Shown here: one piece after another, positions 42,201 to 45,200 of the stretch | Numbering within the stretch: the first letter of the stretch is position 1 | Layout: each line of letters opens with the position of its first letter | Source: Epinephelus fuscoguttatus | Lineage: Eukaryota > Chordata > Actinopteri > Perciformes > Serranidae | Reading direction: 5' to 3' | DNA: 64,000 nucleotides | Assembly: GCF_011397635.1 (NCBI RefSeq) | Contig: NC_064763.1 | Coordinates: forward strand, 26,859,437-26,923,436 | Notes under the pieces: model-generated | Databases searched by the model: none | Seen by the model: only the letters and a program-made list of their open reading frames with translations | Told to the model about the DNA's origin: nothing | Program-made: the position numbers and the translations under genes

Positions 42201-45200
42201 GGCCCTCTACACACACATCCACCGATTCACACATCTTACTGATGGCTAACAGGAGGGCATCACCCACTCTGGACAAATCCGGCCTCCCCAGCAGTAGCTC
42301 TGTCACCTCCAGATGTTCATTGGCTACAGCCAGCTGCAGTGCATTCTGGCCCATGTAGTCCACAGCGTTGACGTTCAAGTTGGGCACTTGGAGCAGCATG
42401 CGCCGCACCTCTGGTATGTTGCCGTATTCAGCCGCCTCCAGAAAACGCTGCTCGACGTCTGACAGGCTGACTGAGGGAGCAGAGAACATGTAGGCTGGAC
42501 CACGCAGGGCCTGGCGACGTTTCACAGCACTGAGAGGAGCCATGAGCTGTCTCTCAGAGCTGCTGTGGCTGCCAAGAGAGTCGGGAGACATAAACACAGT
42601 ATTTAATGTCCACATCGTAACTTATATGCAAGCACATAAAGCTTTTTGGAAACCACACTTCACTTCCCAGTTTCATCCCACATGTTCTAGGACTAAAGTG
42701 TTTGACAGGCTCAAGATGCAGTTAACAGGATTTAATCATTAATTCTCCATATGTGGTGGTAATACCAGAACAAATCCAGCTTCACTTGTCTTAAAAACAC
42801 ACCGAGTGATCTGGTGCAAGCTTTTATTTTACAGTTTGGGAGATTTAAAGGTCCACTGTGTAGGATTTAGGCGGATATATATGGGGTGCCGTTTGTAAAG
42901 TGTCTCACGCTGAAAATAACATCAACATTTTGCCACATTTAGCTTCAAACAATATTTAAAAAAGTATTGTTATTTTTTTAGCGTCACCTTTTCCAACATT
43001 TACAGCAATATTTGTTAACTTAGAAATATATTAAATAGTTAAATCTAAATATTAAATGTGGCACCTAAATGTTAAATGTTAAATCTAAATATTAAATCTA
43101 AATCTAAATGCTAAATCTAAATCTAAATCTAAATATTAAATCTAAATCTAAATGCTAAATCTAAATCTAAATCTAAATATTAAATCTAAATCTAAATGCT
43201 AAATCTAAATCTAAATCTAAATGTTAAATCTAAATGCTAAATATAAATATAAATATAAATGTTAAATCTAAATATTAAATCTAAATCTAAATGTTTTGGG
43301 TGAAACTAAATATTTAGCTAATATGCAATCTACACTGCTGGTCACCGGAAGTACCAAAATAAAAGCTCGAGATGGTCAGACTGTTTATAGAATCAAATAA
43401 CGAATTAAAACCAACTTATCGGGGGAAATGGACACTTGAACATACATTAGCGTGATAATAACTACCTAAAATAACAAGAAACGTGTTTGGAGAAATTTTA
43501 TTTGATGTGTACTTTGAGCTGTTAGTGTCCCTTCTGAGGGAATCACCTTGTTGTTTACAAATACTTCCGGGTAGAAAACCAGCGGAGTTTAGCTACATAT
43601 ATATATGCACATCTCACGTTTTTCACGTCACTGTATCACCGCTTTAGACTAATCTGGTGTTTGTAAAGCCTATAAACACTATGACTGAACAAACATTACT
43701 ATCACGGTCTGAAATTAATAACATGGTTATCGAGATTAGCGGGCTAACTGTTAGCTGTTAGCCCCGTTAGCGGTGTCTGTAATGACTCACTAACTCTAAA
43801 CGGTCCGTTAAGAAAATATTTTTTACAGCGGATGTCTTAGTTAGAAAATGATTGAGCTAACATGAGTAGTGTAATGTCGTCGTTTCCGACAAGGGGAGAC
43901 ATTTCAACAGATGACGCCCTGACAGCTTTGCTGCTGCTGCGCCGCTGGTGCTTTCTAGACATCGTGATTTCCCAAAACTGAATAAATACCACATCGCAAC
44001 ACAAAACTGCTTTGCTAGCTCAATCATGTTGTAACTAAGACATCCGCTGGAAAAAATATTTTTTTCACGGACCGTTTAAGAGTTAATGAGTCATTACAGA
44101 CACTGCTAACGGGCTAAGAACTGACGGTTGTTAGCTTAGCTTAGGTTGTTAATCCTCCGAGGGACACTAACAACTCAAAGTACACGTCTAATAAAATTTC
44201 TCCAAACACGTTTCTTGTTATTTTAGGTAGTTATTATCACGCTAATGTATGTTCAAGTGTCCATTTCCCCCGATAAGTTGGTTTTAATTCGTTATTTGAT
44301 TCTATAAACAGTCTGACCATCTCGAGCTTTTATTTTGGTACTTCCGGTGACCGGCAGTGTGAATTTGCATATTAGCTAAATATTTAGTTTCACCCAAAAC
44401 ATTTAGATTTAACATTTAGATTTAGATTTAGATTTAACATTTAGATTTAGATTTAGATTTAATATTTAGATTTAACATTTAGATTTAGATTTAGATTTAA
44501 TATTTAGATTTAACATTTATATTTTATATTTAGCATTTAGATTTAACATTTAGATTTAGATTTAGATTTAACATTTATATTTATATTTAGCATTTAGATT
44601 TAACATTTAGATTTAGATTTAGATTTAATATTTAGATTTAGATTTAGCATTTAGATTTAGATTTAATATTTAGATTTAACATTTAGATTTAGATTTAGCA
44701 TTTAGATTTAGATTTAATATTTAGATTTAACATTTAACATTTAGGTGCCACATTTAATATTTAGATTTATCTATTTAATATATTTCTAAGTTAACAAATA
44801 TTGCTGTAAATGTGGTAAAAGGTGACGTTAAAAAAATCACAATACTTTTTTAAACATTGTTTGAAGCTAAATGTGGCAAAATGTTGATGTTATTTTCAGC
44901 GTGAGACACTTTACAAACGGCACCCCATACATATATGGGCATAAAGGGAATATAATGTAATAAGTGTGTTTTATAATCACCTGAAAACAAGAATCGTCAC
45001 ATTTTTGTGACCTTAGAATGAGCTGTTTATATCTACACAGAGAGCAAGTCCTTGTCCACGGATTCCACCATGTTGCACTGCCATGTTTCTACAGTAGCCC
45101 AGAACAGACAAACCAAACACTGGGTCTAGATAGGGCAATTTTTTTGCATTTTTTTTCTGTTTGCAGTTTGCAAGTTTGCAATTTCTGCTTGTTACATGCA

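Follow-up and report, generated by a model that had tools for sequence, protein, structure and literature searches.

A near-perfect 2-kb palindrome with hexamer and heptamer arrays in a grouper genome, probably a foldback-type transposon copy

A palindrome of about 2 kb was examined in a 64,000-nucleotide stretch of the Epinephelus fuscoguttatus genome (NC_064763.1, positions 26,859,437 to 26,923,436), hereafter the window. It is very probably a foldback-type transposon of some kind. That is the best reading because the palindrome has defined ends, direct-repeat flanks and arrays in both arms, and because it interrupts another repeat. Its inverted repeats fill most of the element and contain tandem repeats, and inverted repeats that are both long and internally repetitive are the foldback hallmark in the available text of two Drosophila studies (PMC4079207, PMC3688188). 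We consider it fairly probable, more specifically, that this is a copy of a foldback DNA transposon without a transposase gene, mobilised in trans, with IS3EU the most likely source of the enzyme. The element is probably a known kind of thing and not a new kind. A sequence-only reading had proposed that the palindrome was either young or part of a foldback transposon, and it is the foldback option that the ends, flanks, arrays and interrupted repeat support.

Results

Alignment of one arm against the other pairs 42875-43859 (985 bp) with 44016-44934 (919 bp) through 768 matches, 31 mismatches and gaps. The near-perfect palindrome is therefore real; the spacer, first put at 149 bp, measures 156 bp (43860..44015, no strand) and contains a 39-codon ORF at 43862-43981. 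In the reading of the ends that we prefer, the whole element spans 42880..44929 (2,050 bp, no strand, TATGGGGTGCC...GGCACCCCATA), with long terminal inverted repeats at 42880..43859 (plus strand) and 44016..44929 (minus strand). The parts of each arm follow in the order 160 bp tip, array, middle (239 bp on the left), asymmetric block and inner segment. A 213 bp block of the left arm (43533..43745, plus strand) faces just 30 bp on the right (44130-44159), which makes the center asymmetric, and the inner segment (43746..43859, plus strand) pairs with 44016-44129. The palindrome score is 556.7. Among 57 other segments of 2,050 bp, taken at 1-kb steps and scored about their midpoints only, the best scored 252, at a Tc1-like element, and the second-best 36.

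That Tc1-like element, at 23099-24726, is apparently complete, with TA-flanked inverted repeats whose arms of 272 and 271 bp share 266 matching bases, TA included. Its transposase ORF runs uninterrupted from about 23512 to 24564, with DDE_3 and a Tc3-type HTH above the Pfam cut-off. Since its arms are alike and its ORF is uninterrupted, this element may be young.

The left array of the palindrome (43040..43300, plus strand, 261 bp) divides into 39 pieces, 24 of them hexamers and 13 heptamers. The right array (44393..44771, minus strand, 379 bp) is longer and has the same unit types, in 57 pieces that include 33 hexamers and 20 heptamers. The hexamers are mostly TAAATC with a few TAAATA, and the heptamers are TAAATAT, TAAATGT and TAAATGC. 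Hexamers are thus present, as an earlier description as (TCTAAA)n arrays had it, but that description is only part of a picture in which 6- and 7-bp units are mixed, and the likeness to telomeres goes no further than unit length. Five gaps set the two arrays apart in alignment (7, 19, 13, 33 and 44 bp), with the extra sequence always in the right array; the three short ones are whole units (7, 6+6+7 and 6+7). A recurrence of the array motif in the tip of the element was considered and dropped, since its best match, 11 of 13 bases, is by our estimate about what chance would give. The window also contains a minisatellite at 63066-63153, with 2.8 copies of a 32-bp unit.

Array length had been named as the main difference between the arms. 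The difference is there, but the account is incomplete, as the 213-versus-30-bp block differs too, and point divergence is uneven. Within 42880-44929, matches and mismatches number 154/6 in the tip, 249/5 in the array, 234/4 in the middle, 25/4 in the asymmetric zone and 102/11 in the inner segment. With the asymmetric zone (29 columns) excluded, the inner segment (11/113) is about four times as diverged as the outer arm (15/652; Fisher p 0.0005), and the inner excess persists when the array is left out (outer 10/398, p 0.0019). The simplest reading is that the outer arms of an old element have been kept alike, perhaps by gene conversion.

The end positions are fixed to within a few bases. Arm homology reaches the TATGG and CCATA ends and continues at most 5 bases further, in an AT run. 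With these symmetric ends, TATGG..CCATA, the flanks are GATATA (42874..42879) and CATATA (44930..44935), unstranded copies of a putative 6-bp target duplication that match at 5 of 6 positions, with one mismatch. The window contains 145 TAYGG/CCRTA pairs spaced 60-6000 bp apart, and at least 14 of the 20 end bases match in a single one, the palindrome's. Unequal ends give instead a 9-bp direct repeat, ATATATGGG (left 42877-42885, right 44931-44939), that matches at 9 of 9; perfect direct repeats of 2 to 8 bp also occur among the 132 boundary choices examined per length.

On its left the palindrome is flanked by one end of another, dispersed repeat (42845..42879, plus strand), which starts with TTAA at 42845-42848 and continues as AGGTCCACTGTGTAGGATTTAGG...; related termini lie at 58288(+), 58736(-) and 38535(-). 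TTAA adjoins all four of these repeat termini in the window (three elements, at most 5 mismatches, the palindrome's own flank included; a further blastn match, at 7004-6976, was weaker, with E 0.53, and was left out of the count). Three of the four begin with AGG and one with TGG. The only two-ended copy, 58286-58738, has related ends and a different interior. TTAA lies at each side of it, and inspection of its flanks by eye showed no matching 8 bp. An insertion into a hAT-like MITE had been suggested. A dispersed repeat is indeed represented there by its left part, but hAT elements make an 8-bp target duplication, and the hAT label is probably wrong because TTAA, found at four of four termini, is a Kolobok and piggyBac target. 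With TTAA beside its end, the interrupted repeat fits either of these better; the consulted text of one report names TTAA as the target of both and gives Kolobok ends as RR..YY (PMC9587614). An ORF at 59029-59460 (minus strand) resembles by eye a remnant of a PIF/Harbinger transposase, with no Pfam match at E 1.

The other termini of this repeat allow comparison with an empty site. When the element is taken out together with one of the two 6-bp copies, 34 of 45 positions are identical to the copy at 38549, versus 29 of 45 with the element in place and 28-32 for 12 other lengths. Two other termini give no signal (35 v 34 and 29 v 29 of 45), and a 50-base comparison with the copy at 58282 gives 36 at length 6 with no peak and a maximum of 37 at length 12. 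An empty site is thus favored by one of the three termini compared; it would be the same site for the 6-bp and 9-bp duplications, so this comparison does not separate them. A perciform repeat consensus would presumably continue through the right flank of the palindrome.

A minus-strand exon lies near 42232-42568. In a PDB search, residues 29-130 of its ORF (about 42232-42537) match TRPC6 best (E 1.9e-38), but TRPC3 scores so nearly as well (E 3.1e-37) that the exon alone cannot decide between them; the neighboring genes, as we take them to be, favor trpc6. About 310 bp separate the element from a candidate splice acceptor, whose end lies at 42569. The palindrome had been placed in trpc6 intron 1. 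A TRPC exon does adjoin it and, as exon 1 was not found, intron 1 is no more than its likely location. A repeat family common to the trpc6 region and the stretch past the palindrome is represented at 37899-38522 and 45557-45754, with 71-76% identity.

The proposal that the palindrome could form very long double-stranded RNA is borne out by prediction. The transcript strand has a predicted fold of -1210.9 kcal/mol, in which 746 of 868 pairs join the two arms, versus -488.1 to -627.8 kcal/mol for six control segments of equal length. No known RNA family reaches its gathering score in 42400-45500. Such a hairpin might affect trpc6, and RNA editing would be natural to look for in a 2-kb hairpin that lies within an ion-channel gene.

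The element encodes no IS3EU DDE transposase. Counted from a start codon, no ORF in it exceeds 56 aa, and there is no stop-to-stop ORF of 80 aa. Four small ORFs compared with Pfam (39-56 aa, the central 39-codon one included) gave nothing above cut-off, though one of them matches DUF4275 below the threshold (E 0.043). The central ORF was considered as a transposase exon and dropped, being without a Pfam match. Exact-pattern scans of viral and genome contigs and blastn against phages and plasmids found no true copy of the element, and such misses say little, since the collections searched were not fish genomes. The IMG/VR contig L001 has one match of 20 bp, which does not extend and is about what we estimate chance would give in a collection of that size. 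Four 15-base strings from the element or the interrupted repeat were not found in a literature search.

Discussion

Our assignment to a superfamily leans weakly, on terminal sequence, toward an IS3EU-like element. The ends, taken symmetrically, have the TA..TA form TAYGG..CCRTA. In the text at hand, IS3EU families are described by TA..TA termini and, as a rule, duplications of 6 bp (PMC10045372), and a rust-fungal set combines TAYGG..CCRTA ends with 6-bp duplications (PMC12730594); annotated IS3EU elements occur in killifish genomes (PMC12763893, consulted in part). As the palindrome encodes no transposase it would be non-autonomous, and we call it IS3EU-like and do not claim membership. This part of the explanation might as easily be wrong as right. 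A literature search joining IS3EU with foldback returned a sole co-mention, the word "foldback" in one reference list.

We envisage an element whose terminal inverted repeats expanded until they made up almost all of it and came to hold arrays with units of 6 and 7 bp. A transposase from elsewhere in the genome, likeliest of the IS3EU superfamily, would have recognized its TAYGG..CCRTA ends and inserted it at an AT-rich site within an older TTAA-flanked repeat, probably in trpc6 intron 1; gene conversion would then have preserved the likeness of the outer arms as the asymmetric center diverged. Mobilization by a transposase encoded elsewhere has also been proposed for other defective foldbacks.

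A foldback transposon of another superfamily, Mutator-like in the first place, or P/Galileo-like or TA-targeting, would reduce the IS3EU-like ends to coincidence; we think this unlikely. In the Mutator-like form the element is 42886-44930 (GTGCCG...CCCCATAC) with ATATATGGG as its 9-bp duplication, and the perfection of that direct repeat counts in its favor, as does the company it would keep: most foldbacks seem to be Mutator elements according to the Tetris paper (PMC4079207), and Galileo is placed in P (PMC3688188), as far as the portions consulted go. Against it, the two ends would be offset from each other by about 7 bases, and chance would have to explain why the left duplication repeats 6 of the 7 bases at the extremity of the right end. 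As the 9-bp reading needs this chance likeness, we still prefer the symmetric ends.

The remaining rivals do without a transposon. Other matches to the element within the window are all 41 bp or shorter, as they would be had single-copy sequence simply undergone a local inverted duplication, but direct-repeat flanks, a terminal motif, arrays in both arms and the interruption of another repeat make that origin very improbable. Still harder to credit is an artefact of assembly or reads, a foldback chimera in which only one arm is real. Chimeric reads can yield near-perfect inverted repeats; here, the arms differ by 31 mismatches, five array gaps and the 213/30-bp block, differences that argue against a foldback read, and the sequences outside the two ends also differ.

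If the IS3EU link is true, foldback architecture arose in one further transposase superfamily, and the case bears on the selection of long repetitive ends as binding-site arrays; without it, this is an ordinary transposon copy. The fullest version, in which a fish IS3EU lineage independently gained the foldback form, with arrays as transposase-binding sites and conversion sparing the asymmetric center, strikes us as distinctly doubtful.

Comparison with known systems

The palindrome resembles IS3EU elements in its TA..TA ends, the TAYGG..CCRTA motif, a possible 6-bp duplication and presence in fish, as far as the partial text of three reports describes them (PMC10045372, PMC12730594, PMC12763893). 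It differs in having no transposase and a 6-bp duplication that is putative, and in its near-1-kb inverted repeats with arrays, a form absent from the IS3EU descriptions in the text available from two of these (PMC10045372, PMC12730594). Rehavkus, in the portion consulted, is similar in having a minisatellite near its end, and its 9-bp duplication would agree with the rival reading of the ends, should that reading be right; its inverted repeats are 26-400 bp, and it is listed from arthropods and annelids (PMC6446971). The Drosophila foldback-like elements Galileo and Tetris have inverted repeats that are described, in the passages available, as long and internally repetitive like those of the palindrome (PMC3688188, PMC4079207). 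Three complete Tetris copies have no conserved ORFs, much as the palindrome has no transposase, whereas Tetris has 8-10-bp duplications, is placed in Mutator and has a repeat named TIR-220, against units of 6 and 7 bp here (PMC4079207, in part). Galileo belongs to the P superfamily, and according to the text seen the repeats within its long ends bear extra transposase-binding sites (PMC3688188); by analogy, the palindrome's arrays may be repeated binding sites for a transposase.
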